From NCBI RefSeq assembly GCF_036669915.1, contig NC_089312.1, forward strand, positions 31,101,330 to 31,165,329: a DNA stretch of 64,000 nucleotides, read 5' to 3'. Origin of the DNA: Pocillopora verrucosa (Eukaryota; Cnidaria; Anthozoa; Scleractinia; Pocilloporidae). The translations under genes and the position numbers were made by a program. Of this stretch, positions 3,621 through 51,672 are shown one piece after another. Numbering within the stretch: the first letter of the stretch is position 1; each line of letters opens with the position of its first letter. The notes beneath the pieces were generated by a model, which made no database searches, was not told where the DNA came from, and saw only the letters and a program-made list of their open reading frames with translations.

Positions 3621-6450
3621 ATTGCCTATCCGAATGGGACCTCCAACATCAAGAAAAGCCTTTCAGAGCCAAAACACTGCCATTCACGACAACAATTTTG
3701 GGCATAGAAAAACCGATGAAAAAATATGAAAATTACCTCTTTTAATCTTCCTTTTCATTTCCAACGGGTCGTACTTCTTCCTCAAACACAAGACTTTGCA
3801 AGAATAGTACCATGCTGGCTTTAGAAAAATTGTTTGTGATTGTGACACACCCTCTTTTTGACGTGTGAAAGGCTGACCTCATCTCCGCTTTGCAAGACAA
3901 GGACTCGATGCGACAATCATATTGTGTTATGAAGCTGTGAGCTCATCGCCTCTGGAGGCTAAGGATAACCATGGGCATCAGCTGTAAAGTTTTGATATTA
4001 CTCGAAAAAAAGATATTATTTGGTTAAAATAGTCTTCTAACTACTATACTTTCGAGTTATATTCTTACACTTTTGAAAACTAAAAGAGAGAGGCTGTAAA
4101 TCGAGTACCGAAAGTTGGCTCGAAGTTAGGCGAAGAGATGCCAGATCTATTAGCAATAATAACATTAGGACCATCACCTTCTAGCAATCCTACCAATCTA
4201 TACCCATAAGTTATGGAAGGTCTCTGAAGCCATAATCAATACTAAGATTTAGACCATCAGCTGAAAACTATTTCATCACGCCAAGGGCAAGATTCAGCAG
4301 AACTTTGAGTCCACGGTCAATAACAAGATTTGGACGACGCTGAAAAAGGCTTCTCTCACAAACAGTATAATAAAATAATACCTAAAAGAGGCAGTTTATA
4401 TTCTCTTGTACCTAGTAACAATGTCTGATCATAAATAGATAGCTTGATTACGCTATTTTACTGTGCCTCCTACGCTTTACCTTCAGGTTAGTTTACATGT
4501 TTAAACTGCAAGAGGTTATAAGCTGATTGTAATCTCTTGCAGTACCCGCAGCTTAAATGTTTTATAGACTTATATTGCGCAATTATCAATATAAGAATTT
4601 TCAATTGCGAATATACAGATGTTAAAAATGTAAAAAGTCTATTTTAAGTCTTCGTTATTTAGCCTCATTTAATCTATTTTGAACACTACAGCTTTATCTC
4701 CACGTTTGCTGTCTGTTATTACTAACTTACACCTGGGGCGTGTAATTATATCGAAACAATGTCACCTACTTCACGACCGACAGTAAGGTTTTCGCCTGTT
4801 GGGGGAAACGTGAAGGAAAATATTAATATAATCCACAACTTTGATCAGTATCGCAAAAGAACAAAGCTATCCAAAGAAAATTCCTGAAGCTTGGCAAAAC
4901 AAAAAAATAAACCACCCAACGAACAGGATTCTTGTGCTTATTCAGTATTCAGCTAATACTTCAGTTGAATATATTTTTAAAATGAAAAAGCACTGAAAGA
5001 GAAAGAGAAGCAGTCATTAAGATTCACAACAGACATCACTCCCTCTTCCATGGGAAGGCCTCTCAGCCTTCCCCAAAGAGATCTCCAACATCAAGAAAAC
5101 CCATTCAGATCTAGAAGACTGCCATCAGGGAGACAAAAACTACGATCATGAAAAAACTGATGAGTAAATCAGCTCTTTCATTGTTCCTGCCCCTCTCAAA
5201 CGGATCGTAGTTTTTTTCTCAAACACAAGGCTTTGCATGTATAAGACCATGCTGATTTGAGAAAAGTTGTCTTCTATTGAGACAAATCCTTAGCTCTTGT
5301 TGACGTATAGAGGGCTGTCCTTATCACCCGCTTTTTTTGAAAAGTAAAGGATAGGCTTTAAGCTGACAACCGAAATTTCGCTCTTTAAGAGACTTTGTTC
5401 ACCAAAATATATCCTTTTATTTGTTTAAATATGTAACTGTACTGTGTTTGCCCCTCTTACCAAATTCTATTAGCATGTTTTCTTGTGTCTTGTAACCGCC
5501 AACAAGGACAAAATCGAAAACTGATCTAAGAGACTCAAAGAAAATTCTTGAAGTTTGCCTAAAACAAAAAAAAAAAGACCCGATCAAAAGAGTCCTTGTG
5601 GCTATTACTCAGCTAATACTTTAGTTAAATAAATCTGGATAAAAAAACGCACTGAACATGAAAGAGAAGCAGTCATCAAGATTCACCTCCGATATCATTC
5701 CTTTTTCCTTGGGAAGGCCTCTCAGCCTTTCCGGAAGAGACCTCCAACATCGAGAGAAGCCTTTCGGACTCAGAAGACTGCCTTTATGGAGACAGAAATA
5801 ATAATGATAAATAAACTGATGAGTTATATGAGACTCAAACACAAGGCTTTGCATGAATAGAACCATGGTGATTTGAGAAAAGTACTTTTCGAATAAGACA
5901 GCACCTTCTTTTTGACACGTATTTAGGTTGTCATTATCTCAGGACTCGTTAATAATATTGTGTTGAGAAATTGGAAACTTATCACTTCTGCAGTTTACAT
6001 GTAAATATGTGCATTAGCTAGAAAGTTTGATATTTACATGAAAAAGGAGTCATTTGGTTGAAACAGTATTCGTTTTTAAAGAATCTTTCGGCTTATATGC
6101 TTGAGCTTTTAAATACCTATGAAGAGGCTGCAAACTAGGAACCGAAATTTCGCCCTCTAAAAACCTGGTGAACCAAAGGAATCCGTTTTTTATCGTATTT
6201 GCTTATCTATTTTCATCTGCGATGTTTTCGTCGCGCAGATGTTCAATCTTTAGTATAGGGATCGTTCTCGCCTTCACGCTTACTAATGTTTATTAATAGT
6301 TCTCCGTCGTTAGTGTATTGCCCTTTTCACGATTTTATCCCTGATAATAACCAAACTTTCGGCTTACGTTCTCAAGCTTTTAAAAACTAAACAAAAGGCT
6401 GCAAACTGAGAACCGAAATTTTGCTCTTTTACGAAGCTGTGCCAACCATG
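3600..6450. repeat. diverged tandem copies of a segment of about 660 bp
   Basis: Three copies are recognisable. The sentence-like segment 'acctccaacat(c)…aga(a)gcct/ccattcaga/gg' occurs near 3630, 5085 and 5738, each followed by 'cacaaggctttgca' or similar. A second landmark (ggctg(c)aaa…gaaccgaaattt) occurs near 4090, 5360, 6130 and 6385. The best-preserved pair is about 4850-5400 against 5510-6180. A landmark copy recurs at 18690-18720, upstream of the decayed array relative there. The copies are old and non-coding. They lie directly 5' of the RFamide-like array and probably record repeated duplication of its upstream region. Confidence 0.6.
4140..4343 (+). pseudogene. decayed three-unit relative of the RFamide-like array
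   Basis: The DNA from 4183 (agcaatcctaccaatcta…) aligns through 'ggaaggtctctgaagccataatc…agatttagaccatcagctg' with the first units of the large array near 6907-6990. The last unit reads SPRSITRFGRR followed at once by TGA (4341-4343). Upstream in that frame is SILRF-RPSAENYFITPRARF, and then an in-frame TAA at 4233. Unit 1 and unit 2 sit in different frames, so the copy is broken. It shows that a short, terminated version of the same repeat protein existed here. An ending in RFGRR plus stop is a typical way for a neuropeptide precursor to finish. Confidence 0.6.
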
Positions 6451-6639
6451 GTGAATTCTTTTATCATTTGTGATGTTTTCGTTGCACAGATGGATGCTCA
6501 TGGTTGTTCCTTTGCACTGACAGTTCCAACCTGGTCATCTCTTTTCACAGTTGTAGAGTTTTCTATGAAAGATATAAATAAGGCTCTCTAATAGTCCTAC
6601 AATTAGTCTGACCCTCGTCATTTGGGTAAAACAAATCAT

Positions 6640-6739: not shown

Positions 6740-9700
6740 ATGAAAATAGTTGTTGGGCCTATTTACCAACTAATACTTTTGTGGAAATTATCACTAACGA
6801 TACATGGACTGAAAAAGGACGAGCCGAAGATATCACATGGAATACCTCAAGAGAGTAAACGTTCTCTCCAGCCACAGTCAATGACTAGATGTGGACGATC
6901 AACAGATAGCAATCCCCCCACAACTCCATGGACAAGACATGGGAAGTCTTTAAGACCACAGTCAGTAACAAGATTTGGACGATCAGCTGACACCAAACCA
7001 ATTCGTGGAGGTAACAATTATATCAGTTCAATAATACCACAGTCGATAGCAAGATTTGGGGGGTTCGCAGATAAAAATCCTATCAGTCAATGGAAAAGAC
7101 ATGGAAGGTCTATAAGACCACAGTCAGTAACAAAATTTGGACGATCAGCTGACACCAAACCTATTCATGGAGGTGACAGTTATACCAGGTCAATAATACC
7201 TCAGTCAATAACAAGATTTGGAAGGTCCGCAGATAAAAATCCTATCAGTCAATGGACAAGAGATGGAGGGTCTTTCAGATCACAATCAACAAAAAGATTT
7301 GGACTATCAGCTGGCACCAAAATTATTCATGGAGAAACCAAATATATCAGGTCTATAAGACCACAGTCAATAACGAGATTTGGACGATCAGCTGGCACCA
7401 AACCTATTCATGGAGGGAACAAATATAACAGGTCTATAAGTCCACAGTCAATAGCAAGATTTGGACGATCAGCCGGCACCAAACCTATTTATGGAGGGAA
7501 CAAATATATCAGGTCCATAAGACAACAGTCAATAACAAGATTTGGAAAGTCTGCAGATAAAAATCCTACCAGTCAATGGACAAGAGATGGAGGGTCTATC
7601 AGATCAAAGTCAACAGAAAGATTTGGACTATCAGCTGGCACCAAAACTATTCATGAAGGGAACAAATATACCAGGTCTATAAGACCACAGTCAATGACAA
7701 GATTTGGACGATCCGCTAGCACCAAACCTATCTATGGAGAGAACAAATATATCAGGTCAATAAGACCACAGTCAATAACGGAATTTGGACTATTAGCTGG
7801 CAACAAACCTATTCATGGAGGGAACAAATATATCAGGTCTATAAGACCGCAGTCAATAACGAGATTTGGAGGATCAGCTGACACCAAACCTATTCATGGA
7901 GGGAACAAATATATCAGGTCTATGAGACAAAAGTCAATAAAAAGATTTGGACTATCAGCTGGCACCAAACCTACTCATATATGGAACAAATATATCAGGT
8001 CTATAAGACCACAGTCAATAACAAGATTTGGACGATCAGTTGGCACCAAACCTACGCATGGAGGGAACAAATATATCAGTTCTATAACACCACAGTCAAC
8101 AAAAAGATTTGGACGATTAGCTGACACCAAACCTATTTATGGAGGGAACAAATATATCAGGTCTATAAGACCACAGTCAGTAACAAGATTTGGAAGGTCT
8201 GCAGATAAAAATCCTATCAGTCAAAGGACAAGAGATGGAGGGTTTATCAGATCACAGTCAACAAAAAGATTTGGACTATCAACTGGCACTAAACCTATTC
8301 ATGGAGGGAACAAATATATCAGGTCTATAAGACCGCAGTCAATAACGAGATTTGGACGATCAGCTGACACCAAACCTATTCATGGAGGGAACAAATATAT
8401 CAGGTCTATAAGACCGCAGTCAATAACGAGATTTGGACGATCAGCTGACACCAAACCTATTCATGGAGGGAACAAATATATCAGGTCTATAAGACAAAAA
8501 TCAATAAAAAGGTTTGGACTATCTGCTGGAACCAAACCTACTAATATATGGAACAAATATATCAGGTCTACAAGACCACAGTCAATAACAAGATTTGGAC
8601 TATCAGCTGACACCAAAGCTATTTATGGAGTGAACAAATATATATGGTCTATAACACCACAGTCAATGACGAGATTTGGACGATCAGCTGACACCAAACC
8701 TATTCATGGAGGGAACAAATATATCAGGTTTATAAGACCAAAGTCAATAACGAAATTTGGACTATCAGCTGACACCAAAGCTATTTATGGAGTGAACAAA
8801 TATATCAGGTCTATAGCACCACAGTCAATAACAAGATTTGGACAATCTGCTGGCACCAAACCTATTCATGGAGAGAACAAATATATCAGGTCTATAACAC
8901 CACAGTCAACGACAAGATTTGGACGATCAGCTGACACCAAACCTATTTATGGAGGGAACAAATATATCAGGTCTATAAGACCACAGTCAATATCAAGATT
9001 TGGAAGGTCTGCAGATAAAAATCCTATCAGTCAAAGGACAAGAGATGGAGGGTTTATCAGATCGCAGTCAACAAAAAGATTTGGACTATCAACTGGCACT
9101 AAACCTATTCATGGAGGGAACAAATATATCAGGTCTATAAGACCACACTCAACGACGAGATTTGGACGATCAGCTGACACCAAACCTATTCATGGAGAGA
9201 ACAAATATATCAGGTCTATAGGACCACAGTCAATAACGAGATTTGGACTATTAGTTGGCACCAAACCTATTCATGGATGGAACAAATATATGAGGTCTAT
9301 AACACCACAGTCAATGACGAGATTTGGACGATCAGCTGACACCAAGCCTAATCATGGAGGGAACAAATATATCAGGTCTATAAAACACAAATCAATACAA
9401 AGATCTGGACTATCAGCTGGCACCAAACCTAAACATAGATGGAACAAATATATCAGGTCTATAAGACCACAGTCAATAACAAGATTTGGACGATCACCTG
9501 GCACCAAACCTATTCATGGAGGGAACAAATATATCAGGTCTATAAGACCACAGTCAATAAGAAGATTTGGACAATCTGCTGACACCAAACCTATTCATGG
9601 AGGCAACAAATATATCAGGTCTATAAGACCACACTCAACGACGAGATTTGGACGATCAGCTGACACCAAACCTATTCATGGAGAGAACAAATATATCAGG

Positions 9701-12700
9701 TCTATAAGACCACAGTCAATAACGAGATTTGGACTATCAGCTGACACCAAAGCTATTTATGGAGTGAACAAATATATCAGGTCTATAACACCACAGTCAA
9801 TAACGAGATTTGGACGATCAGCTGACACCAAACCTATTCATGGAGGGAACAAATATATCAGGTCTATAGCACCACAGTCCATAACAAGATTTGGACGATC
9901 AGCTGACACCAAACCTATTTATGGAGGGAACAAATATATCAGGTCTATAAGACCACAGTCAATAACAAGATTTGGAAGGTCCGCAGATAAAAATCCTATC
10001 AGTCAAAGGACAAGAGATGGAGGGTCTATAAGATCAGAGTCAACAAAAAGATTTGGACTATCGACTGGCACTAAATTTATTCATGGAGGGAACAAATATA
10101 TCAGGTCTATAAGACCACAGTCAAACAGGAGAGTAGGACGATCAGCTGGCACCAAACCTATTCATGGAGGAAACAAATATATCAGGTCTATAACACCCCA
10201 GTCAATAACGAGATTTGGACGATCAGCTGACACCAAAGCTATTTATGGAGTGAACAAATATATCAGGTCTATAAGACCACAGTCAATAACGAAATTTGGA
10301 CGATCAGCTGACACCAAACCTATTCATGGAGGGAACAAATATATCAGGTCTATAAGACCGCAGTCAATAACGAGATTTGGACGATCAGCTGACACCAAAC
10401 CTTTTCATGGAGGGAACAAATATATCAGGTATATAACACAAAAATCAATAAAAAGATTTGGACTATCAGCTGGCACCAAACCTACTAATATATGGAACAA
10501 ATATATCAGGTCTATAAGACCACAGTCAATAACAAGATTTGGACGATCAGTTGGCACTAAACCTAGGCATGTAGGGAACAAATATATCACGTCTATGAGA
10601 CCACAGTCAATAACGAGATTTGGACGATCAGCTGACACCAAACCTATTCATGGAGGCAACAAATATATCAGGTCTATAAGACCACAGTCAATAACGAGAT
10701 TTGGACGATCAGCTGACACCAAACCTATTCATGGAGGGAACAAATATATCAGGTCTATAACACCACAGTCAATAACGAGATTTGGACGATCAGCTGACAC
10801 CAAACCTATTTATGGAGGGAACAAATATATCAGGTCTATAAGACCACAGTCAATAACAAGACTTGCAAGGTCCGCATATAAAAATCCTATGAGTCAAAGG
10901 ACAAGAGATGGAGGGTCTTTCAGATCACAGTCAACAAAAAGATTTGGACTATCAACTGGCACTAAACCTATTCATGGAGGGAACAAATATATCAGGTCTA
11001 CAAGACCACAGTCAATAAGAAGATTTGGACGATCAGCTGGCACCAAACCTATTCCTGGAGGGAACAAATATATCAGGTCTATAAGACTACAGTCAATAAC
11101 TAGATTTGGACGATCAGCTGACACCAAACCTATTCATGGAGGGAACAAATATATCAGGTCTATAAGACCACAGTCAATAACGAGATTTGGACTATCAGCT
11201 GACACCAAAGCTGTTTACGGAGTGAACAAATATATCAGGTCTATAGCACCACAGTCAATGACGAGATTTGGACGATCAGCTGACACCAAACCTATTCATG
11301 GAGGGAACAAATATATCAGGTCTATAAGACCACAGTCAATAACGAGATTTGGACGATCAGCTGACACCAAACCTATTCATGGAGGGAACAAATATATCAG
11401 GTCTATAACACCACAGTCAATAACAAGATTGGGACGATCAGCTGACACCAAACATATTTATGGAGGAAACAAATATATCAGGTCTATAAGACCACAGTCA
11501 ATAACAAGATTTGGAAAGTCCGCAGATACAAATCCTATCAGTAAAAGGACAAGAGATGGAGGGTCTATTAGATCACAGTCAAAAAAAAGATTTGGACCAT
11601 CAGCTGGCACCAAAACTATTCATGGAGGGAACAAATATATCAGGTCTATAAGACCACAGTCAATAACAAGATCTGGACGATCCACTGGCACCAAACCTAT
11701 TCATGGAGGGAACAAATATATCAGGTCTATAGGACCACAGTCAATAACAAGATTTGGACTATTAGTTGGCACCAAACCTTTTCATGGATGGAACAAATAT
11801 ATGAGGTCTATAACACCACAGTCAATGACGAGATTTGGACGATCAGCTGACACCAAGCCTAATCATGGAGGGAACAAATATATCAGGTCTATAAAACACA
11901 AATCAATACAAAGATCTGGACTATCAGCTGGCACCAAACCTAAACATAGATGGAACAAATATATCAGGTCTATAAGACCACAGTCAATAACAAGATTTGG
12001 ACGATCAGCTGGCACCAAACCTATTCATGGAGGGAACAAATATATCAGGTCTATAAGACCACAGTCAATAAGAAGATTTGGACAATCTGCTGACACCAAA
12101 CCTATTCATGGAGGCAACAAATATATCAGGTCTATAGGACCACAGTCAATAACAAGATTTGGACTATTAGTTGGCACCAAACCTATTCATGGATGGAAGA
12201 AATATATGAGGTCTATAACACCACAGTCAATAACGAGTTTTCGACGATCAGCTGGCACCAAGCCTAATCATGGAGGGAACAAATATATCAGGTCTATAAA
12301 ACAAAAATCAATAAGAAGATTTGGACAATCTGCTGGCACCAAAGCTATTCATGGAGGGAACAAATATATCAGGTCTATAAGACCACAGTCAATAACAAGA
12401 TTTGGACGATCCGCTGGCACCAAACCTATTCATGGAGGGAACAAATATATCAGGTCTATAAGACCACAGTCAATAAGACGTTTTGGACAATCTGCTGGCA
12501 CCAAACCTATTCATGGAGGGAACAAATATAGCAGGTCTATAATACCACAGTCAATAACAAGATTTGGACGATCAGCTGACACCAAACCTAGTCATGGAGG
12601 GAACAAATATATCAGGTCTATAAGACCACAGTCAATAACGATATTTGGACGATCAGCTGACACCAAACCTATTTATAAAGTTAACAAATATATCAGGTCT

Positions 12701-14761
12701 ATAAGACCACAGTCAATAACGAGATTTGGACGATCAGCTGACACCAAACCTATTTATGGAGTGAACAAATATATCACGTCTATAAGACCACAGTCAATAA
12801 CGAGATTTGGACGATCAGCTAACACCAAACCTATTTATGGAGTTAACAAATATATCAGGTCTATAAGACCACGGTCAATAACGAGATTTGGACGATCAGC
12901 TGACACCAAACCTATTCATGGAGGGAACAAATATATCAGGTCTATCACACCACAGTCAATAACGAGATTTGGACGATCAGCTGACACCAAACCTATTCAT
13001 GGAGGGAACAAATATATCAGGTCTATAAGACCACAGTCAATAACAAGATTTGGAAGGTCAGCAGATAAAAATCCTATCAGTCAAAGGACAAGAGATGGAG
13101 GGTCTATTAGATCACAGTCAAAAAAAAGATTTGGACCATCAGCTGGCACCAAAACTATTCATGGAGGGAACAAATATATCAGGTCTATAGGCCCACAGTC
13201 AATAACAAGATTTGGACGATCCGCTGGCACCAAACCTATTCGTGGAGGGAACAAATATATCAGGTCTATAGGACCACAGTCAATACCAAGATTTGGACTA
13301 TCAGTTGGCACCAAAACTATTCATGGATGGAACAAATATATCAGGTCTATAAGACCACAGTCAATAACGAGATTTGGACGATCAGCTGACACCAAACCTA
13401 GTCATGAAGGGAACAAATATATCAGGTCTATAAAACAAAAATCAATAAGAAGATTTGGACTATCAGCTGGCACCAAACCTACACATAGATGGAACAAATA
13501 TATCAGGTCTATAAGGTCACACTCAATAACAAGATTTGGACGACCAGCTGGCACCAAACCTATTCATGGAGGGAACAAATATATCAGGTCTATAAGACCA
13601 CAGTCAATAACAAGATTTGGACGATCCGCTGGCACCAAACCTATTCATGGAGGGAACAAATATATCAGGTCTATAAGACCACAGTCAATAAGACGATTTG
13701 GACTATCAGCTGACACCAAAACTATTTATGGATTGAACAAATATATCAGGTCTATAAGACCACAGTCAATAACGAGATTTGGACGATCAGCTGATACTAA
13801 ACCTATTCATGGAGGGAACAAATATATCAGGTCTATAACACCACAGTCAGTAACGAGATTTGGACGATCAGCTGACACCAAACCTATCCATGGAGGGAAC
13901 AAATATATCAGGTCTATAAGACCACAGTCAATAACGAGATTTGGACGATCAGCTGACACCAAACCTATTTATGGAGTTAACAAATATATCAGGTCTATAA
14001 GACCACAGTCAATAACGAGATTTGGACGATCAACTGACACCAAACCTATTCATGGAGGGGACAAATATATCAGGTCTATCACACCACAGTCAATAACGAG
14101 ATTTGGACGATCAGCTGACACCAAACCTATTCATGGAGGGAACAAATATATCAGGTCTATAACACCACAGTCAATAACGAGATTTGGACGATCAGCTGAC
14201 ACCAAACCTATTTATGGAGGGGACAAACATATCAGGTCTATAAGACCACAGTCAATAACAAGATTTGGAAGGTCCGCAAATAAAAATCCTATCAGTCAAA
14301 GGACAAGAGATGGAGGGTCTATTAGATCACAGTCAAAAAAAAGATTTGGACCATCAGCTGGCACCAAAACTATTCATGGAGGGAACAAATATATCAGGTC
14401 TATAGGACCACAGTCAATAACAAGATTTGGACGATCCGCTGGCACCAAACCTATTCATGGATGGAACAAATATATCAGGTCTATAAGACCACAGTCAATA
14501 ACGAGATTTGGACGATCAGCTGACACCAAACTTATTCATGGAGGGAACAAATATATCAGGTCTATAAAACAAAAATCAATAAGAAGATTTGGACTATCTG
14601 CTGGCACCAAACCTACACATAGATGGAACAAATATATCAGGTCAATAAGACCACAGTCAATAAGAAGATTTGGACGACCAGCTGGCACCAAACCTATTCA
14701 TGGAGGGAACAAATATATCAGGTCTATAATACCACAGTCAATAACGAGATTTGGACGATAA
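6740..14761 (+). CDS. giant tandem-repeat protein, candidate RFamide-type neuropeptide precursor
   Basis: One open frame of 2673 codons encodes 98 repeats of 27 residues; the first is 28. The consensus unit is RFGRSADTKPIHGGNKYI then RSIRPQSIT. By hand count about 56 of 98 units carry RFG followed by R or K, the family signature for C-terminal amidation followed by basic cleavage. The predicted peptide is PQSITRFamide or pyroGlu-SITRFamide. About 20 units read FGL instead and would not be amidated. The N-terminus MKIVVGPIYQLILLWKLSLT has a basic residue then a hydrophobic run, so it could be a signal peptide, but a spliced upstream exon is equally possible. The frame closes at a TAA (14759-14761) where a unit should read CGA-TCA-GCT, so the stop looks like a nonsense mutation. 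Anthozoan RFamide precursors are known to hold many peptide copies, but not, to my knowledge, this number. It could alternatively be a non-peptide repeat protein or a coding minisatellite. Confidence 0.6.
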   Translation: MKIVVGPIYQLILLWKLSLTIHGLKKDEPKISHGIPQESKRSLQPQSMTRCGRSTDSNPPTTPWTRHGKSLRPQSVTRFGRSADTKPIRGGNNYISSIIPQSIARFGGFADKNPISQWKRHGRSIRPQSVTKFGRSADTKPIHGGDSYTRSIIPQSITRFGRSADKNPISQWTRDGGSFRSQSTKRFGLSAGTKIIHGETKYIRSIRPQSITRFGRSAGTKPIHGGNKYNRSISPQSIARFGRSAGTKPIYGGNKYIRSIRQQSITRFGKSADKNPTSQWTRDGGSIRSKSTERFGLSAGTKTIHEGNKYTRSIRPQSMTRFGRSASTKPIYGENKYIRSIRPQSITEFGLLAGNKPIHGGNKYIRSIRPQSITRFGGSADTKPIHGGNKYIRSMRQKSIKRFGLSAGTKPTHIWNKYIRSIRPQSITRFGRSVGTKPTHGGNKYISSITPQSTKRFGRLADTKPIYGGNKYIRSIRPQSVTRFGRSADKNPISQRTRDGGFIRSQSTKRFGLSTGTKPIHGGNKYIRSIRPQSITRFGRSADTKPIHGGNKYIRSIRPQSITRFGRSADTKPIHGGNKYIRSIRQKSIKRFGLSAGTKPTNIWNKYIRSTRPQSITRFGLSADTKAIYGVNKYIWSITPQSMTRFGRSADTKPIHGGNKYIRFIRPKSITKFGLSADTKAIYGVNKYIRSIAPQSITRFGQSAGTKPIHGENKYIRSITPQSTTRFGRSADTKPIYGGNKYIRSIRPQSISRFGRSADKNPISQRTRDGGFIRSQSTKRFGLSTGTKPIHGGNKYIRSIRPHSTTRFGRSADTKPIHGENKYIRSIGPQSITRFGLLVGTKPIHGWNKYMRSITPQSMTRFGRSADTKPNHGGNKYIRSIKHKSIQRSGLSAGTKPKHRWNKYIRSIRPQSITRFGRSPGTKPIHGGNKYIRSIRPQSIRRFGQSADTKPIHGGNKYIRSIRPHSTTRFGRSADTKPIHGENKYIRSIRPQSITRFGLSADTKAIYGVNKYIRSITPQSITRFGRSADTKPIHGGNKYIRSIAPQSITRFGRSADTKPIYGGNKYIRSIRPQSITRFGRSADKNPISQRTRDGGSIRSESTKRFGLSTGTKFIHGGNKYIRSIRPQSNRRVGRSAGTKPIHGGNKYIRSITPQSITRFGRSADTKAIYGVNKYIRSIRPQSITKFGRSADTKPIHGGNKYIRSIRPQSITRFGRSADTKPFHGGNKYIRYITQKSIKRFGLSAGTKPTNIWNKYIRSIRPQSITRFGRSVGTKPRHVGNKYITSMRPQSITRFGRSADTKPIHGGNKYIRSIRPQSITRFGRSADTKPIHGGNKYIRSITPQSITRFGRSADTKPIYGGNKYIRSIRPQSITRLARSAYKNPMSQRTRDGGSFRSQSTKRFGLSTGTKPIHGGNKYIRSTRPQSIRRFGRSAGTKPIPGGNKYIRSIRLQSITRFGRSADTKPIHGGNKYIRSIRPQSITRFGLSADTKAVYGVNKYIRSIAPQSMTRFGRSADTKPIHGGNKYIRSIRPQSITRFGRSADTKPIHGGNKYIRSITPQSITRLGRSADTKHIYGGNKYIRSIRPQSITRFGKSADTNPISKRTRDGGSIRSQSKKRFGPSAGTKTIHGGNKYIRSIRPQSITRSGRSTGTKPIHGGNKYIRSIGPQSITRFGLLVGTKPFHGWNKYMRSITPQSMTRFGRSADTKPNHGGNKYIRSIKHKSIQRSGLSAGTKPKHRWNKYIRSIRPQSITRFGRSAGTKPIHGGNKYIRSIRPQSIRRFGQSADTKPIHGGNKYIRSIGPQSITRFGLLVGTKPIHGWKKYMRSITPQSITSFRRSAGTKPNHGGNKYIRSIKQKSIRRFGQSAGTKAIHGGNKYIRSIRPQSITRFGRSAGTKPIHGGNKYIRSIRPQSIRRFGQSAGTKPIHGGNKYSRSIIPQSITRFGRSADTKPSHGGNKYIRSIRPQSITIFGRSADTKPIYKVNKYIRSIRPQSITRFGRSADTKPIYGVNKYITSIRPQSITRFGRSANTKPIYGVNKYIRSIRPRSITRFGRSADTKPIHGGNKYIRSITPQSITRFGRSADTKPIHGGNKYIRSIRPQSITRFGRSADKNPISQRTRDGGSIRSQSKKRFGPSAGTKTIHGGNKYIRSIGPQSITRFGRSAGTKPIRGGNKYIRSIGPQSIPRFGLSVGTKTIHGWNKYIRSIRPQSITRFGRSADTKPSHEGNKYIRSIKQKSIRRFGLSAGTKPTHRWNKYIRSIRSHSITRFGRPAGTKPIHGGNKYIRSIRPQSITRFGRSAGTKPIHGGNKYIRSIRPQSIRRFGLSADTKTIYGLNKYIRSIRPQSITRFGRSADTKPIHGGNKYIRSITPQSVTRFGRSADTKPIHGGNKYIRSIRPQSITRFGRSADTKPIYGVNKYIRSIRPQSITRFGRSTDTKPIHGGDKYIRSITPQSITRFGRSADTKPIHGGNKYIRSITPQSITRFGRSADTKPIYGGDKHIRSIRPQSITRFGRSANKNPISQRTRDGGSIRSQSKKRFGPSAGTKTIHGGNKYIRSIGPQSITRFGRSAGTKPIHGWNKYIRSIRPQSITRFGRSADTKLIHGGNKYIRSIKQKSIRRFGLSAGTKPTHRWNKYIRSIRPQSIRRFGRPAGTKPIHGGNKYIRSIIPQSITRFGR

Positions 14762-16140
14762 GCTGACACCAAACCTATTCATGGAGGGAACAAATATATC
14801 AGGTCTATAAAACAAAAATCAATAAGAAGATTTGGACTATCAGCTGGCACCAAACTTATACATAGATGGAACAAATATATCAGGTCTATAAGACCACAGT
14901 CAATAAGAAGATTTGGACGACCAGCTGGCACCAAACCTATTCATCGAGGGAACAAATATATCAGGTCTATAATACCACAGTCAATAACGAGATTTGAAGG
15001 ATCAGCTGACACCAAACCTAGTCATGGAGGGAACAAATATATCAGGTTTAAAAGACAAAAATCAATAAAAAGATTTGGACTATCAGCTGGCACCAAACCT
15101 ACGCATAGAGGGAACAAATATATCAGGTCTATAAGACCACAGTCAATAACAAGATTTGGACAATCTGCTGACACCAAACCTATTCATGGAGGGAACAAAT
15201 ATATCAGGTCTATAAGACCACAGTCAATAACAAGATTTGGACAATCTGCTGACACCAAACCTATTCATGGAGGGAACAAATATATCAGGTCTATAACACC
15301 ACGGTCAATAACAAGATTTGGACGATCAGCTGACACCAAACCTATTTATGGAGGGAGCAAATATATCAGGTCTATAAGACCACAGTCAATAACAAGATTT
15401 GGAAGGTCCGCAGATAAAAATCCTATCAGTCAAGGGACAAGAGATGGAGGGTCTATTAGATCACAGTCAAAAAAAAGATTTGGACCATCAGCTGGCACCA
15501 AAACTATTCATGGAGAGAACAAATATATCAGGTCTATAAGACCACAGTCAATAAGACGATTTGGACAATCTGCTGACACCAAACCTATTCATGGAGGGAA
15601 CAAATATACCAGGTCTATAAAACAAAAATCAATAAAAGGATTTGGACTATCAGCAGGCACCAAACCTACACATAGATAAAACAAATGTATCAGGTCTATA
15701 AGACCACAGTCAATAAGAAGATTTGGACGATCAGCTGGCACCAAACCTATTCATGGAGGGAACAAATATATCAGGTCTATAATACCACAGTCAATAACGA
15801 GATTTGGAGGATCAGCTGACACCAAACCTAGTCATGGAGGCAACAAATATATCAGGTCTATAAGACCACATGCAATAAACAGATTTGGACTATCAGCTGG
15901 CACCAAACCTACGCATGGAGGGAACAAATATATCAGGTCTATAAGACCACAGTCAATAAGAAGATTTGGACAATCTGCTGGCACCAAACCTATTCATGGA
16001 GGGAACAAATATATCAGGTTTATAACACCACAGTCAATAACAAGATTTGGACGATCAGCTGACACCAAACCTATTCATGGAGGGAACAAATATATCAGGT
16101 CTTTAAGACCACAGTCAATAACAAGGTTTGGAAGATCAGC
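6863..16140 (+). repeat. 81-bp tandem array, 115 units, no net indels
   Basis: The consensus contains agatttggacgatcagctg, acaccaaacctattcatgg and aacaaatatatcaggtctat. The period stays at 81 bp (27 codons) throughout. The last CGA of the open frame ends at 14758 and the last unit's AGA ends at 16135, which is exactly 17 periods. Variants differ mainly at a few positions: cga/cta (R/L), gac/ggc (D/G), cat/tat (H/Y), ggg/tgg. A second unit type carrying KNPISQ(R/W) recurs near 7070, 7232, 7557, 8208, 9019, 9990, 10878, 11526, 13070, 14280 and 15415, always at multiples of 81 bp. Such homogeneity suggests unequal crossing-over under frame constraint. Confidence 0.95.
9213..9630 (+). repeat. block of array units duplicated 31 units downstream
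   Basis: Units containing LLVGTKP-HGWNKYMRS, then NHGGNKYIRSIKHKSIQRSG, then KHRWNKYIRS occur here and again at about 11724-12141, 2511 bp (31 x 81) apart. I see only a few base differences over the rare-variant units. This indicates duplication of a multi-unit block, not single-unit slippage. Confidence 0.8.
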
Positions 16141-16222
16141 TAACTTAATTAAATTATCAAATCAAGTGGAGAAACATTTTAGGAATTGTATATATTTTAA
16201 CATTTTAATATTTTTTTTGTAG
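14762..16222 (+). pseudogene. in-frame continuation of the repeat protein beyond two nonsense codons
   Basis: Frame 2 stays in register after the TAA at 14759-14761. Seventeen more 27-residue units follow, interrupted only by a second TAA at 15677-15679, where sister units read AGA-TGG. The last unit is followed by a non-repeat tail starting SANLIKLSNQVEKHF, ending at TAG 16220-16222. All three stops are in the same frame (position mod 3 = 2). The undisturbed reading frame from 6740 would span 3160 codons. The stops may be real truncations, allelic variants, or sequencing or assembly errors. Confidence 0.65.
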
Positions 16223-16854
16223 CCATTTATGGTTATTATTAGTTAAATGCAAGACCCTACCAGCTATGCTGAATATTTTATCGTAGTTAAATAAAGTTGT
16301 TCGTTCATTCAAGTGATCAGGAGCGTATAATGCTAGTTTCTCTTGAAGACACTCTCCTACTTTAGGTGTAAATTTGAAAAAAAAACAATAAAATAGGCAC
16401 ACGAAAAAAGAAAGGTTATGTTCGGGTCATCAAGCCACGCTGAGAAATAATTTGACAGGTGTAAACTGGGTGTACAAAATGAAATAGTTGCGTGATAATC
16501 GCGTGATGTTTGAAAGCTAGAGAATAAAAAAATCCAACTGCGCGCTACATCTTCACCCATTCTTAATAAAATGAAAGGGCAAAAGTCGTGAATTGATAAA
16601 GTAACAACAACTTTGCGTATACTTTTAAGAAATTTTCTGTTGTTTTTCTCCAAAGATTTGAGAAGAACGTCAATGATTCTTTTCTTTTCTTTTCTTTTTT
16701 TTGATAAACAAGTTGCTAGAGAACCCAAAATCCCAGAGGAGGATTGCGCCATAAATCAATCACTTAAATCTCAGTAACCTCCTTCTTAATTCACCGCTCA
16801 TTTTTTCTTGGGTTGATGAACGAAAATAGATGAAAGAATAGGTTTTTCTAATGC
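16223..16854. other. 3' flank of the array, no gene seen
   Basis: AT-rich. The minus-strand frames here (16205-16402 and 16357-16752) are low-complexity F/K/S-rich and have no recognisable domain. Confidence 0.4.
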
Positions 16855-17530
16855 ATATATTCTGACCACAATAGCTGGGAAGGTCAAGGCAACTGCGCAG
16901 TTCCTCAGCATTAGTATACTTCAGTACATTTTCTGACCACAATAGCTGTCAGAAGGAAAATGCGATTGCGCAATTACTCGGCATTATTAATGACTTTGGC
17001 TAAATGCTGGAATTCCATACGCTTCCTGATGACTCACTTAGAGTCATTTTAGATCAGGCTAGACTAGAGAGAGAGTGTGGTAAGGGCTCACTTCACGCGG
17101 GAGCAGTGGAACTAACAGGCGGTAACACGACCATGTGCACGTGAGTTCCTGACTTCCGAACTTCCGACGTATATGCACTGCACGCAGTTTAAAATGCTTT
17201 TGTATACACATGGTCTGATCGAACTCTTCCATCTCTGAAGAATGAAGGAACGGTGAAACCTAAAACAGAGCGGAAATTCAATTTGAGAAACAAATCGATT
17301 TTTCACACTTTAATCTTATTCGAACATTAGAAGATTGCTTGAAGTGATGATAAAATACAGTTCCAAGCCAAATGATCACCTAAGCCAGTAATTGAATCAG
17401 CTTGTCTGTCGTCGCGTCCTAAGCAAAGCTCTGTTTTGATCAAATACTTCATTAGTAAACAATCGGCCTTTTTCCATTACTCGACCGAATCACGTACATC
17501 TAGAAAGACTACTCTGTAAACTCATTAAAC
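16855..17530. repeat. segmental duplication, copy 1 (partner 19797-20490)
   Basis: Shares a long colinear similarity with 19797-20490. Landmarks are ctgaccacaata(g/a)ctg, cgcaattactcg, gactttggctaaat, and ggctcac/tttca followed by actaacaggc. Later landmarks are gatcagctgtctgtcgtcgcg-like sequence and cattaaacac/cattaggcac. Copy 1 also holds an internal duplication: ttctgaccacaatagctg at about 16860 and 16930. No coding function is recognised. Confidence 0.7.
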
Positions 17531-18640
17531 ACACTTCATACTGATTTTGATGCAAATTACCACAAGTCAACAACTTCCTTATTCTTTCGTTCTGTTATTT
17601 TGCGTTTTTTTTTTTGCGAGATTTTCTCAAGAGGTCCTAACATACTCGGATTTCAATAAATATTTGATCAATTATAATTCTATAAATAATTTATTCATTA
17701 TCATACCATAGATATAGCCTAAAAAAGGTCGAGTATGAAATGGCCTTTTGAGCTTATTCAAACTGGTAAGGAAACTACGCAACCTGAAAACACATTCATG
17801 ACTATGATATCCCCTGAGCCATTAATCAATGGAAAAACAAAAACATTACTACCTATTGTACCCATCATGTCATTTCTACCTACCCCTGTCCCGAACTGGG
17901 GGAGGGGGGGGGGAATTCCTCTTACGGGAGAGAAGTAGCCCCGAATTTTAAACATTACCACTTGGTGAAAGACTACTTACTACATACTAAATACTAAATA
18001 CTAAATACAACATCAACAGAAGACTGTCGAGTGCCGAAAGACTGCTTGAAAAACTACATTGATAAAGATAACGATAAAATGACAAAAATAATCTATCAAA
18101 GTGAGTTTCTTGTTACATTGAAAGGAGTCAAACTCATCGTGACCTTAGTACAGCTCTCTCAATAAATGGGACTCTTTTCGTTAAAGAGAAGTTGTTTTTC
18201 GATTGAGACGACACTCTCTTGCTGATTGCTTCCACGACTGAAAAATTCAACATTACACTAATTTTTTTCTGATATCTAAGAACGAATGGCAGATTCACTG
18301 TTCACCCTCAGTAAACTCAAGAAAAATACGAAGTTCATCGCATGTTATCCTGCACCAGGAAAATGCCAATGAATAGCCTGTTTTCTTGAAAGTTTTTTTT
18401 CTTGAAAGAAAAGCACTATAATATATCGTGTTTGCCTGAATTCGTTAGTCTGCTCTTATCACCTCTCTGCTAGGTAATAACGCGAAAAGGTATTGACACT
18501 GTGAGGGAAACTTGTGTGCTTATTGCCTTTGCGGGCTAAAGGGTTGACATGCAAATCAGTTGCAATTATGTGTTTTCTACAGGAAAAAAGCATTCTTTGC
18601 TTGAAAAAATTCCTGATATGTGAACCTTCGTTTCTCAGTC
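17531..18640. other. no gene seen
   Basis: Contains poly-T near 17606, a G-rich run at about 17899-17914 and short overlapping frames on both strands. Nothing recognisable. Confidence 0.4.
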
Positions 18641-19190
18641 TTCAGCCGTTCGAAACTAAGCTTTCGCTATCTTTTTTAGCGCTGAACGATAGCCTCAAAA
18701 CTGGGAACCCACATTTTGCTAATGTTAACGAATATACGTGTATTTAAATGAATGTGTCTAAACCTTGTTTCCTCCTCCATTTTCAATTATAATGTTTAAT
18801 ATAGTCGCAAGATTTTCAAGCTTTTTGACGCTGAGAGAGATTGTTTTTGCCTTCACACTAGACAAAATTCACCAAGAGTTCTTCGACTGCGTAATCATGT
18901 GTAATGCCTTTTGTTGCGTATACATTTATAAATTAATCGACTTGACATGGAAGCAGAAAATTGACATCAATTTGTGCATCATTAAAAAAGAATGTAAACC
19001 AGGTTCTTTTACTAACTTTCCAACAATTAATGAGGTCTTCGTTATATGGGTAAATACATCGAATGGAATACTTCACCAATGCAGCCACAGTTAGAAAAAA
19101 AGTCAATTGACAAAACATAGAAGGTTTATCTGACCACAGTAAATACCAAGGTATGGACGATCAGACGAAAATTTAAAAATCCAACTGGTA
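18640..19190 (+). pseudogene. decayed second relative of the RFamide-like array with upstream flank
   Basis: At 19097-19175 the sequence gtcaattgacaaaacatag-aaggtttatctgaccacag-taaataccaaggtatggacgatcag aligns with the array-start unit gtcaatggaaaagacatgg-aaggtctataagaccacag-tcagtaacaaaatttggacgatcag near 7088. Upstream, gaatggaatacttc … gcagccacag matches acatggaatacctc … cagccacag before the array. At 18690-18720 ctcaaaactgggaacccacattttgct matches the flank landmark near 6385. The RFG codons have decayed (RYGRS, with TAA for the Q-S pair). It appears to be a short, dead paralogue. Confidence 0.55.
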
Positions 19191-19796
19191 GGAGAAGCGT
19201 AGTTTATTCCCGCATCTACTTTTCATAACAGAGGTTGTAAACAGAGCGCTGATAGAAGCTCCTCATATCCCAGTGACGACCAATACAAAATCCGTGTATT
19301 AATTAATATAAGCCACTACACGTTACGTATCCTTTCAAAAAATATGCTAAGATGTTTTCTCCAAAAAAGAAAAAAATAAATAGGTAAATAACGACAATAA
19401 GTGATATCTATAGCCTCCATATGCGCGAAAATATGCACGGATAATTGACCGTACCGGAATTGAAGAAGTAGACGTAAAGTTTGAAATTTGAGAATATCAC
19501 TTGCGGGCTTGCATAGCTGGGGCGTATTCGAACTCGTGATGTGTTTAGACCAAGCGTGCGCGAGCGCAAATATTTGATGGGTTCTAACGCGTGATTTCTT
19601 TGGTTTCATTTCCTCTATAAGTTTTTTTTTCTGAAAAAAAAAACAAAAAAAACAAAAAAACAATAAGTAGCCTGAGAGGTCAAATTCCTTGAGTCGGATT
19701 GTATTACTAATCAGTCACTTCCTTCGCAGTTTATGACTCGATTTCCGTTTGTTTTAGAATGTGGATGAAAGAAAACACTGAAACGGCGACCTCAAT

Positions 19797-20490
19797 AGCT
19801 GTGAAGGTCAATGCAATAACGCAATTCTCTGGGATTAAGATATTTCAGTATATATTATCTGACCACAATAACTGCAAACGTCCGTGCGATTACGCAATTA
19901 CTCGCCCTAGTAATTGACTTTGGCTAAATTTTGGCATAACTATGTTTTCAATGACTCAACCGGGGTCATTTCAGGTCAGGGTAGTCTACGAAGTATATAG
20001 GAAGTGTGCGTACAATTTTTTTTTAATATTCTGGAAGGCTCATTTCAAGGGGGATCAGTGAGACTAACAGGCCGCAGTATTGCGACCGTGCACGCGTGAG
20101 CCTCTTTCATATTGCATACACGCACTGCACTCTGATAGAAAAACGCTTCTACACACAAGCTCTGGCATCTTTGCAGACTAAAAGCCGAGTGAAACTTTAC
20201 ACAGAGCGGAAATTTAATTGCATACATAAAATAGAGTTTACGCACTCTATTTTTATCCGAACACGGGAAGCTTAGTTAAGTGATATCATAAATACCGTCT
20301 AGTGCTAACTGATTACCTAAGCCAATAATTGGATCAGCTGTCTGTCGTCGCGACCAGAGCTAAGTTATGCTCGATCCGAAACTTCACCAGTAAACAATCA
20401 GCCTTTTACCCATAACGCGACCAACTTACTTACATCGGCGAAGTACACGCTGTACACTCATTAGGCACTTTTCATACAGGTATTCAAAAT
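19797..20490. repeat. segmental duplication, copy 2 (partner 16855-17530)
   Basis: Similar to 16855-17530 across its length with moderate divergence, and in the same orientation. Because each copy follows an array or its relic, the original duplication probably included the repeat-protein gene plus its 3' flank. Confidence 0.7.
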
Positions 20491-23400
20491 TACATTGGTT
20501 AACAAATTCCTTATTATCCAGTTATTTTCTTTTCCCTCTTGCGAGTTATGAACGACCTTCTAACGTACTAGGATTTGATTACTTATTCGACAAACCAATT
20601 AAATATGCTTTACACATTAATATCTTTTAAACGATAAAAAAAGCCACGTGAACAATTTCAAAAATTGCTTTTTGAGCCTTTTTAAACTAGCAAGGACAAT
20701 AGATAATTTAAAGAGACTTCATAGGCTTGGCTAACCAGAAAACGTTCCCCACTCCCTCCCCACCAAGGTTCATTAGACCTACTTTGGAAAAAATGCACAT
20801 CATTTCTATTCAATAGAAATTTTAAATTCTTTTGAAAAAATTCATTGTTTACATTCTTGAATCTTGACCTTATTTAGGGAGAGCACGGCAAAAGAGGAAA
20901 TGCAAAACGAGTCGAAAAGTAAATTGCAATTTTAGATTTGCATCTCACGGAGTAATGTGATCGTTCATATTTTGCATACATAGAATAATTCGCCAGTTCA
21001 GCTGATCTGCTGTTATCAGCTTAGAGTATTTGAAACATCTAATTATAGCTGCATATTTTATTCGAACTGAGAGATTTCCGTTTGCGATCAATGCTGTCTT
21101 TGGTTAGTTTTCTTTCCAAATACAGATGCGTTAAACTGTGTTATTTCAAAGCGTTTATTGCTCGAGGCTACGACACGCTATATTTAGATGATTTCACCTT
21201 GTGCTCAACCCATACTTAACATCAGAAAGGGCTGCCACTGAACATTCTAGAGGGATATGCAACTCTAGCCCAAAAATTTTTCATCATAACAATAAATAAA
21301 GCAGCCTCTTCGCTAAATTCTTCGAAACTGCCGCAAAAATTTGCTGAACCAACTTTAAAAATCCTAAAAAGTAGAAATATGAACTAAAAACATTTTACAC
21401 TCGGCAGAAATCCATTGAAAATAACAGGGACTGGGAGATTCTAAGAGTAAAGTCCAGTGAAAAACTACAGCTATACAAATTGACCTTAAGGTTTGTGATA
21501 ACTTATCCAGCCGCTCGATCTTCCGTTTATAAATTTATCCTGGGTTCGTCATTAGCATTTCCCACTTCTTTGTTTGCTTTTTTGTTTGAATTTTTATCTC
21601 GTTTGTTGGTGTATATCGTTTGAGGAAATGGTATTTATAATTCTGTTTATTTTCCTTTTTGCGGCTTATTAGTATGGTTAGAAACCTTAAATTAAAAAGA
21701 TAGCGTGACTATTGCCATTTCACTGCATTTCATTGGATTTTGCGTAGGTAACTCAAAATATTAATGAAAACTATTTTTATTTTTTTATTGAAATAAAAGC
21801 TAAACGGCGGAGGGTTGACATTTAATTTTACCTCATCGTCTGATGTTGTTTCAAAACTGCAACCTCATTACGTAACCAAATACTTCTGAACTACAACATA
21901 CAAATCATGTCTGGTATGCCATTTCTTAAACATGTAGCGGCAATCAACTGGAATAAAAGAATGACGTCCTTTTCATTTCTTCCTGAACATCACAATAAAT
22001 AGTGATTTTCACGTACGATTTTTCCTTTTACGAACACTCAATTATGGCGCAGAATGAATGAATGAATTAAGACCTCTTTTAAGGAACAACTAAGTTTGGA
22101 AATTAAGTTTTTCCCGAATATTCCGGAATCACAAATCCCACGAAGTGAAATCAGATCTATGAAGTACATTGATCCTTTGGTTTTGAGCGAGTAAAAACAA
22201 ATGGTTTGTCATCATTGATCTGTTCGCTGCACAAGAGGCTGATTATTATTCTGTTCTACTCCTTTCTTTGGGCGAGTTTCGCTTAACGAAACTCAAGATT
22301 GAATGAGTAGCCCGATTGAGTTGCGCCCTTCGTGTGTTTAAAATGAAATTTTGTTCATTCATCAGGAATAATTGAGTTCCAAAAAGTCATCTTTCAGATA
22401 ATTGATAAATTCCCGCTAATGCACTATTTATACCCTCAAAATCTAAACACTGCACAATTTAATCTCACTACGAGGTAAATTTCGAGCCAGATAGAACTGA
22501 ACAATCAACCACACATTTCCTCATTATATTACTAAAAACAAATCAATTTATCGCCAAAATTTCTACTTTTTTCGGTTAAACATCTCCAGCTTGGTCAAAT
22601 ATAGCAAAACTGAACCTAATGGATTGCACCCTAAAGGCTCCGCTGTCTTGTGAAAAGGCAATATAAGCAGTACTGATTATATAATGAAATATCATGCATA
22701 TAATAAAGACTAAGTGCAAATATTGAGGTTTTAAGAAGAGGCTAAGTAAAGCAGGCTAAGTGCAGAAACTGAACCAGTTTCCGGCGCTTGAAGGAAAATC
22801 TCCGTATCATTAACCTGAGATAAAAAGATCTATTAGCTACTGACTTCTTTAGCGTTCTTTAGCAAGCAGGAAGGAGGATGCTGTCAATCGTTTTCTTCTC
22901 CTCAAATACTACATTAACCTGAAAAAAACAAAACAAAACAAACAAACAAACGAATGAAAAAAATAAAAATAAAATATCCAAATCTACCTAATCCAGAAGA
23001 AATTTTAGGTCAAGCGTTTAGATGTACTGCTCATTTATCGACAATATCCGAGCGTCTTGACTTGTGAGCCTATCGTGATTTTTTGAGACTAAGAGGGTGG
23101 AGAAAAACGACTAAAATTTTTTTAACTACACCGGATGCCATTCAAACTCAGCATATCTAGCGAGGCTATGATAAATCTAATGGCAACGCGACCATCTGTT
23201 TCTGAGTCAAGTTTGGTTCAATTGTCTTGTTAATCAGTCCTGTCAATTCACGACAAAGAGCCACCTGAACAAAAGGGTTAAATGTCATCCTTTTATCACT
23301 AGCAAAACCGAAATTTCAACGCGACGTATTTGAATTTGTTCAGTCCACTGAGTTCAATTAAAGATCGCTGAAGCGTATATCGATTGTCGTCAAGTTCTGC

Positions 23401-36220: not shown

Positions 36221-38935
36221 TTAGCTAAGATGTTCTGCATTGTATAAATAAAAGCACTCAACAAACTCTGGTAATTTTGTTTCCTTTTTCAAATATATTT
36301 TCAACTTTGATAGGCCAGTGTTTGGAGAAGTAAATGAAATTCTCCTTTTGGATCCTGGAGGAAACTTTGAGGGTAAATCATCCATACAGTGGAGCAGAAG
36401 CTGCCTTATGAGTCCACCATGAGAAACAGCCAGAATATTAGCTAGCTGTGACATCTTTTCTTGTTTTTGTGTGACACATTTTGAGGTCTGTGGCTCATCA
36501 ATGATTCTATCATTGACACAAATGTCATTCTGAATGGAACTGCTAGAGTCACTACAATGTGAAGTTCCAATTTCATGTATTATGGAGTTCAAAAACTTTG
36601 CTGCTCTTTCTTTGAGTTCAGCAACTGTTTCTCCCCCCTTTGGTGTAAATATGTTTGTCTTCATATTGTTCTCTGCTGCCATTTGTTTAAACCTCTGGTT
36701 GGATACTCCTTCTGCTACACCATAACCCTAGGAACAGAAATAGAAAAAAAATTATTGTAAAATGTTTTTCATAAACAATTTCTTGTCTATTTCTACTTGC
36801 TCACTTCAAATTGAGACAAAAAAGAGACTGTAAGCAGTTTAACTACAATGAATCTATTTCTCGATGACTACTTACTATGTTATCACGATGAACTATTTTC
36901 AATCAATATAGGAAACAATTTATCAAAGGACAAACAAACCAAGTGCAGACTCTGAGAGGGTGAAACAAGAAGATGGTATCTACAAATTTAATATTCAATT
37001 CTCACTCTCTCTCGCAGACGAGAATCCTCTACAATCTTCATTTGAGAGCAGCAATTATTTTGATTGATAATCTCCTCTGCAGTCTGAAAGATGCAAAAAG
37101 AAATTATATTTACCAGTCAGCTAGGATATAAAACTAACATTCACCCACCAGGTCAGATAACAACAAAAACAACTGACTAATTGAAAATAACAACTAGGAA
37201 AATGAGGTACTTCTCTGGAACCAGATAAATCCTTCTTCAGCTTTCAACAAGAAAAAATTTCCACAGGAACAGTCGTGGTAATTTTCATAAACTTTTCATC
37301 CACTCTCTACTGCTGCATGACCACTTCCACAACAAGGAAAAAATAGTTTGACATACCTTTCGAGCTCTTTTCAAATCACTTGAGTAAATGTGAGAGAAAA
37401 CTTCATCATTTAACTTGTTTCCAGCAAGTTGGGCTTGTTTTATACCTTCATCTGAGAGCAAAGTATCTGTCTGCCCTGCAAAATGATTAAGTCAACTTGT
37501 CATCAACACTAATGAAATTATAACTCAACCAGTCCAGATTTGTCACAATGAGAACTGAAACTTATCAACCACAAATAAAATATTTTCTCTCAACCATGAC
37601 TGGTCTTAAGACTGAATATCCAACACCTAAAACAGGGTAATATCCAAGTAACATTCCCAGTTTTCAGATATCACAGATGATTTGTAAAGAAAGTCTTCAT
37701 TTACATCTAATTAAGAATGGCAGAGCCCTTTAGTGTTGTTGCAAAAGAAGAAGTGTTGCTCATTTATAACACCATTTCAGTCATCACCATAAAGTTAACA
37801 TTCAATGCAGTAAACATTTTAATGCTAAGAATTTCATAAACTCCTGGTCTAACTCTTGTAAAAAAAAAAGTAATGGATAGCAAAAGCTATGACCTCCAAC
37901 CAAATGAAACTAATGCTTATACATTTAATCTTAGACGTAACATTTCATCAAAGCTCAAAGGAGAGATACACTCTTGAAATTTAAAACTGTTTGCTTCTTG
38001 TAGCAGATGTCAGAATTGACAGCTATCCAAGAACAATTTTATACCAAATGGAGGCTTCTGTTTCTCTCTGTAAGAAAAATGTTCAAAATAGTTTGATGAA
38101 GGGAACCTTTCAAGTTTGACAACAAAAAAACAGCCAATCAGGTTATTGTTTTTAATCAAAGCAACTATTTATAGGATTTACAATCACAGACATTCAGCAA
38201 GTTTTCACCTTGAATGATGTTTGCCTTGTTTTCTGGAGTTTCACCACTACAAAAAAAATTTCAGAGTATAAAGAATCAGACAATAACATATAATGTAGTG
38301 TTTATCATGTTAAATTACATTGCTCATCTATATATCAAATCTCGGTTCTGTCCCTCTGGTAATCATTATCCCAATCAGTTCATTATCGAGGCTCTATAGT
38401 AAATAAATAAAATTTTAAAGAAGTAAGGAAGAGAGAAAAGCTCAATTTTTATCAGAAGTGATAAGGATCTATAAAATTTTCGAAAGGAGGTCACTTATTT
38501 CCTCCACAAAACCCTGAAAACAACATTTTTTTAACCAGACAAAAACCGAGCAAATTGCAAAGAACTACAAATCATCACAAAGATCAGCCATGTTTGTTGG
38601 ATTACGACACGTCACAGTAACATCTAATTAAAAATAAAATGTTCAGACAATGATTGTATGCGAAGCGTATTTCCCTCTTAAAGGGTTTTTAATGCAGCTA
38701 CATGTCCCATAAATTTTATGCCTTAAAATCATGTGAAAGAGAAAAACAGACGTCCGATCGAGCTGTCCTAGGATGAAAAGCACGTTCAGACGGTCAACTC
38801 CACTAACTACAATTTTTGTTTGCTTATTTCAGTTCAAACAAAGGTTATGAGAGAGAAGTTAACTACTCACTGTCTGACAAGGGTTAGAAGAATAAATGCC
38901 GAGCAGCTATCCCCTGCATCAGTTGCGTCCGCCAT
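36221..38935 (-). CDS. TIGAR: fructose-2,6-bisphosphatase TIGAR
   Basis: Histidine-phosphatase superfamily enzyme that lowers fructose-2,6-bisphosphate, diverting glucose to the pentose-phosphate pathway. Its natural substrate range is debated (2,3-bisphosphoglycerate is also reported). Exons in transcript order: 38871-38935, 38209-38246, 37357-37475, 37006-37083, 36221-36727. Phases agree and give 268 codons against about 270 in the human protein. The catalytic RHGE motif spans the first intron (H22 is the phospho-acceptor type His). Then come GQTDTLLSDEGIKQAQ, FSHIYSSDLKRARKTAEEI, DSRLRERGYGVAEG, FTPKGGETVAELKER and AVSHGG (second catalytic His203), plus TSPNTG near the C-terminus. The insert between about 155 and 190 is Ser/acidic-rich, as in other TIGARs. 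The ATG at 38935 is the only one in frame before RHG. Confidence 0.93.
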
Positions 38936-51601: not shown

Positions 51602-51672
51602 TGCTGCCAGCTGGGATATTATCCACGTTTCAGTGATTATGCAACTTAGTGCCCAGTTTCCTCACGGGAAAA

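Follow-up and report, generated by a model that had tools for sequence, protein, structure and literature searches.

The 64,000-nucleotide window analysed here, from the stony coral Pocillopora verrucosa (NCBI RefSeq assembly GCF_036669915.1, contig NC_089312.1, forward-strand positions 31,101,330 to 31,165,329), contains a long tandem array of 27-residue units built around the peptide core QSITRFG. Judged by its sequence, the gene that carries this array is most probably an intact TRFamide precursor that has expanded recently and loosely, and that is kept open by selection, with its single copies under weak selection. The predicted peptide is not new, since pQSITRFamide was described as neuropeptide family 5 of Scleractinia by Koch and Grimmelikhuijzen in 2020 (PMC7523074). 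What is notable is the length of the array, together with a pattern in which the frame is guarded and the units are free.

A single open frame of 2673 codons, for which no intron is required, holds 98 units in register ahead of its first stop, and the array goes on in the DNA to 115 units with zero length changes. Tandem Repeats Finder (TRF) reports one array at 6946-16141, with period 81, 113.5 copies, 84% matches and 0% indels, the last an uncalibrated value as regards noncoding arrays. In the consensus unit, five of the six frames are interrupted by a stop and one is open. Frame, register and TRF array thus agree with an earlier note, made from the letters of this DNA, which had described a 27-residue unit repeated 98 times in a frame of 2673 codons, with 115 copies in total. 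The parts of the gene are as follows.

6573-6580, + strand: candidate TATA box TATAAATA, with zero ATG between it and 6740
6740-14761, + strand: precursor open reading frame (ORF), 2673 codons
6740-6808, + strand: candidate signal peptide MKIVVGPIYQLILLWKLSLTIHG, residues 1-23, by hydropathy
6863-14758, + strand: units 1-98, 27 residues each, consensus RSIRPQSITRFGRSADTKPIHGGNKYI
14759-14761, + strand: first stop, TAA, inside unit 98 and directly behind a complete PQSITRFGR
14762-16141, + strand: remainder of unit 98 and units 99-115, past the first stop, register unchanged
15677-15679, + strand: second in-frame stop, in unit 109
16290-16295, + strand: AATAAA, candidate poly(A) signal

The TATA-like sequence, the lack of an ATG between it and the start of the frame, and the AATAAA behind the array would allow a one-exon gene. 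Each signal alone may be due to chance: the + strand of the window carries TATA[AT]A[AT][AG] at 19 places, and the TATA box may therefore be near the gene by accident; AATAAA is found on that strand 76 times, in some cases within the array. The best 9-residue hydropathy of MKIVVGPIYQLILLWKLSLTIHG is 1.99, against a maximum of 1.46 across all other windows of the protein, which weakly suggests a signal peptide at the N-terminus of a predicted precursor with an isoelectric point (pI) near 11.9.

The motif RFG is present in 85 of the 98 translated units and is followed by Arg or Lys in 56; the fuller pattern QxxxRFG-R/K is found in 52 and exact QSITRFG-R/K in 38. Repeated QSITRF or QITRF with Gly and then a basic residue behind it is what marks a pQ(S)ITRFamide preprohormone, and it is these 52 copies, 38 of them exact, that place the gene there; the repeated QGRFG that marks Antho-RFamide precursors occurs in none of the 98 cores. 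The earlier statement that most units carry RFG plus a basic residue is correct, though on the generous side. Among units 2-98, the canonical amidation and cleavage signal is missing in 33 of 97, because Leu (23), Gln (5), Pro (3) or Gly (2) replaces the basic residue behind Gly. The residues leading into the peptide are IRPQ in 41 of the 98 units, ITPQ in 14 and IGPQ in 6, and unit 1 is divergent (QSMTRCGR). A second peptide inside the spacer was considered and dismissed, the consensus spacer having no Gly-basic signal. A second spacer class, like ADKNPISQRTRDG, was seen in about 11 units recurring across 7025-15529; it is mostly followed by a GSIRSQSTKRFGL-like unit without a basic residue behind Gly, and has been amplified together with its neighbours.

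Complete family 5 precursors have been published with 3 to 30 copies: 19 in Acropora millepora, 30 in A. digitifera and 20 in Stylophora pistillata, with related forms in M. capitata (18 pQSVTRFamide) and P. rus (3 pQLVTRFamide); the precursor given for P. damicornis is incomplete (PMC7523074). The gene described here shares with these preprohormones the identical heptapeptide, the predicted amide and the multi-copy plan, and differs from them in its 98 translated 27-residue units, of which only 38 are exact and processable and many are degenerate, and in a further 17 units beyond the stop. The highest cnidarian copy number that we found in print is 50, for the GPRGamide precursor of S. pistillata (PMC7523074), other published cnidarian precursors having 32-38; the statement that no larger one is in print is confined to open-access literature. 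By units, the present array is about twice that maximum and about three times the largest within family 5, and here the earlier note's ‘far more than known’ stands (98 against 50 and 30). By processable copies it does not, given that 38 or 52 are only slightly above published maxima, and 52 is near 50. Among the matches listed in open-access literature, PMC7523074 was the only neuropeptide paper with the string SITRF. That paper called the neuropeptide status of family 5 uncertain as of 2020, the peptides not yet having been isolated.

A more recent study of sea anemones (Thiel et al. 2024, PMC11087051) gives R196 as the receptor of pQITRFamide, with a half-maximal effective concentration (EC50) printed as 7.7E-11, and reports expression of the precursor in larval N1.L2 neurons. 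The Nematostella vectensis precursor shares with that of the coral the C-terminal ITRFamide, and cleavage of the RxxR type is known in Nematostella; the coral peptide, QSITRF, is one residue longer than QITRF. Two potential paralogues are given for Nematostella vectensis, and a cluster of paralogues, comprising one intact copy and two relics, is found in the coral. The GPRGamide precursors of hexacorals, with up to 50 copies (PMC7523074), resemble the present one as high-copy precursors of an amidated peptide with spacers. Antho-RFamide (pQGRFamide) also has an RFamide C-terminus and pyroglutamate, whereas no QGRFG core occurs here, and the Antho-RFamide family and family 5 were called probably not related (PMC7523074).

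The gene is apparently single-copy and intronless. In the 353-Mb assembly of 52 contigs (window start at C1:31101330), a codon pattern for Q-S/T-ITRFG gave at least 44 matches, and all 44 of those listed lie inside the array (window positions 7202-16134); a control pattern gave at least 2. An exact 29-base pattern had zero matches in viral or prokaryotic collections, as expected of an animal gene. Three Pfam matches of the ORF were dismissed: Transketolase_C_1 and Par3_HAL_N_term passed whole-protein cut-offs and YqgF failed its own, and all three are read as sums over repeats, because no stretch passes individually. Outside the gene, other amidated-peptide motifs in the window amount to three isolated matches and zero arrays.

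Two decayed paralogues flank the gene, and the sequence around them is duplicated.

3624-4119: stretch preceding relic 1, which duplicates 5066-5334 and 5834-6153 upstream of the gene (71% and 67% identity)
4145-4345, + strand: relic 1, decayed (nhmmer E 3.6e-7, 2.8e-6 and 0.041)
16864-17667: stretch after the gene, with its duplicate at 19788-20590 behind relic 2 (67% over 843 columns)
19101-19184, + strand: relic 2, decayed and broken by stops (nhmmer E 3.5e-6)

Relic 1 has two units that are clear and a third that is weak, contains in-frame stops and terminates in ...SPRSITRFGRR*. For comparison, the best match on reversed sequence had an E of 1.8. Stops break both relics, unlike the gene between them, and relics and duplicated flanks read as the remains of a tandem cluster with one survivor. 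No further relics were found within 30 kb upstream (best E 0.33), and a weak candidate at 56313-56336 was dismissed (E 0.63). Within the array, 11 pairs of blocks of 3-5 units are at least 95% identical, for instance units 30-34 and 61-65 (99.3%), which is what unequal exchange would leave.

The frame is guarded. On a tree of 113 units, every figure from which is limited by recombination between units, 290 changes were placed, comprising 72 synonymous, 215 nonsynonymous and 3 of stop type, against about 15 expected of the last (binomial P ~1.6e-4). A neutral simulation over all 113 units found stops in a mean of 53 units, against 2 observed (2 of 400 runs as low), RFG in 23 against 99, and Q...RFG-R/K in 8 against 56 (P 0.03). 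These figures depend on rooting the tree at its midpoint, which falls between unit types; the simulation was therefore repeated on 100 units selected by their spacers only, and this run is preferred. One of these 100 units has a stop, against 30 under neutrality (no run in 500 gave so few); RFG is retained in 88 against 50 simulated (P 0.002). Retention of the RF-Gly motif thus exceeds simulation; the unit is, for the most part, near neutral and young: across all pairs of units the ratio of nonsynonymous to synonymous differences (pN/pS) is 0.94 for complete units (pS 0.17), 0.72 for QSITRFGR, 0.98 for the spacer and 1.17 for RFG alone, the last resting on few changes. In nearest-unit pairs (n=77) it is 0.59 for QSITRFG (95% confidence interval 0.35-1.02), 1.14 for the rest of the unit (0.85-1.56) and 0.97 overall (0.75-1.26), a hint of constraint in the core among the most similar units.

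Several results weigh against a maintained precursor. The ratio of nonsynonymous to synonymous tree changes (N/S) is 1.03 times expectation, 1.01 in the spacer, and by tree events the core appears unconstrained (0.95-1.07). In the 100-unit subset, core nonsynonymous events number 47 against 41 expected, retention of Q...RFG-R/K is 47 against 33 under neutrality (P 0.25), and the basic residue behind Gly is kept in 59 units against 79 simulated, if anything less often. The spacer dipeptide TK (unit codons 16-17) is kept in 99 of these units, against 68 under neutrality (0 of 500 runs); it is retained more strongly than the peptide, and this the precursor reading does not predict. The array holds in-frame stops in units 98 and 109. 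Of 248 stretches of 35 codons that begin with ATG in the rest of the window, 16% match the hydrophobicity of MKIVVGPIYQLILLWKLSLTIHG. Searches with a 520-residue head and with ORF residues 1-1000, each scoring 7993 candidates, found no protein homologue at E <= 0.001, in a database that may contain few animal proteins.

An alternative is that a former precursor is turning into a coding-free minisatellite, a self-expanding array whose gene has been truncated at unit 98 and is dispensable. An N/S near 1, two stops, the roughly one-third of units without a basic residue behind Gly and the adjoining dead paralogues would all fit. We regard this as improbable, given that stops and length changes are depleted over the entire array, RFG is kept above simulation, the stop in unit 98 is mild, sparing 98 of 115 units, and the start of the ORF persists along with the candidate TATA and poly(A) signals. 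The earlier note had held that a neutral N/S between units would count against a precursor; for whole units that value is nearly reached (0.94-1.03), and it is opposed by the depletion of stops, the retention of RFG and the core of nearest units.

A structural or matrix repeat protein, in which RFG is incidental and the spacer is perhaps the functional part, would suit the 27-residue repeats, the very basic pI and the retention of TK, and tandem-repeat proteins are reported as unusually frequent in Nematostella (PMC2805694). This is very unlikely, since the repeated segment is a published coral neuropeptide, processing signals included, and no single stretch matches a Pfam family. Inflation of the array during assembly is likewise very unlikely. 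Tandem arrays are difficult to assemble, but here the longest exact repeat measures 227 nt and no 250-mer recurs, so that there are no long exact block copies and long reads could resolve the array, and the GPRGamide precursor of the same assembly has a copy number (46) like those published.

That GPRGamide preprohormone offers a comparison within one genome. A GPRGG pattern gave at least 100 matches genome-wide, against at least 47 for its control, with a cluster on contig C2; the precursor lies at C2:2845000-2849000 on the - strand, with 46 GPRGG-R/K copies and a signal-peptide-like start. Two further pattern matches were seen about 10 kb off, at C2:2835432 and C2:2835566. The GPRGGR core has an all-pairs pN/pS of 0.084 with pS 0.74, a figure from 50 units that were selected because they resemble the motif, so that pN is somewhat lowered; the core is strongly constrained, in contrast to the near-neutral and younger TRFamide units (0.94, pS 0.17). 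The earlier assignment to the RFamide-type precursors is borne out by the heptapeptide, which is the scleractinian pQSITRFamide, and by the presence in this genome of a GPRGamide precursor like those published from hexacorals. That precursor is indirect evidence, good for fair confidence, of a hexacoral host.

In the maintained precursor that we favour, the array would have grown recently to 98 translated units, 115 in the DNA, through unequal exchange of unit blocks. If the gene is expressed, a very basic precursor of about 300 kDa would enter the secretory pathway and be cleaved after RFGR, an RxxR site; RxxR is a monobasic type of C-terminal cleavage, some cases of which have been seen by mass spectrometry in Nematostella (PMC11087051). 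Gly would then be converted to the amide and the N-terminus trimmed to Gln, as pyroglutamate, or to RP/TP-Q, yielding (p)QSITRFamide and variants. Trimming to Q or X-P has been proposed for cnidarians (PMC7523074), and it may therefore yield either pQSITRFamide or a peptide extended at its N-terminus. Of the 98 copies, 52 would be intact at both ends, 38 of them exact, and the remainder would give variants or unprocessable filler. A missense change in one copy may be nearly invisible to selection, because a single copy contributes a small fraction of the output, and a stop or frameshift would be selected against, because all downstream copies would be lost.

Elsewhere in the window, all on the - strand, an ORF of 574 residues at 49940-51661 has RING and NHL-like regions and resembles TRIM2/TRIM3, a Bcl-2 family domain lies at 54689-55150 (Pfam E 3e-11) and a partial histidine phosphatase domain at 36224-36727 (Pfam E 6e-7), and two weak WH1 matches, at 44757-45662 and 40989-41756, fall under the Pfam cut-off. 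Scans of the window with Rfam (gathering threshold) and for tRNA genes gave nothing.

The reason why peptide precursors carry many copies is an open question. This genome offers a contrast between a younger, near-neutral array of 98 units and an old, tightly constrained one of 46 copies. Published copy numbers may be too low, if they are based on short reads. A tentative proposal, for which we see a smaller chance than not, is that this is the largest neuropeptide precursor described, a runaway and probably length-variable peptide-dose gene, where the array as a whole, in its frame and rough dose, is the target of selection and the copies hardly are; a third of the units would already be unprocessable, and the paralogues have decayed. 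The length of the array across colonies and related corals, together with peptide output, bears on whether copy number is a dose visible to selection.

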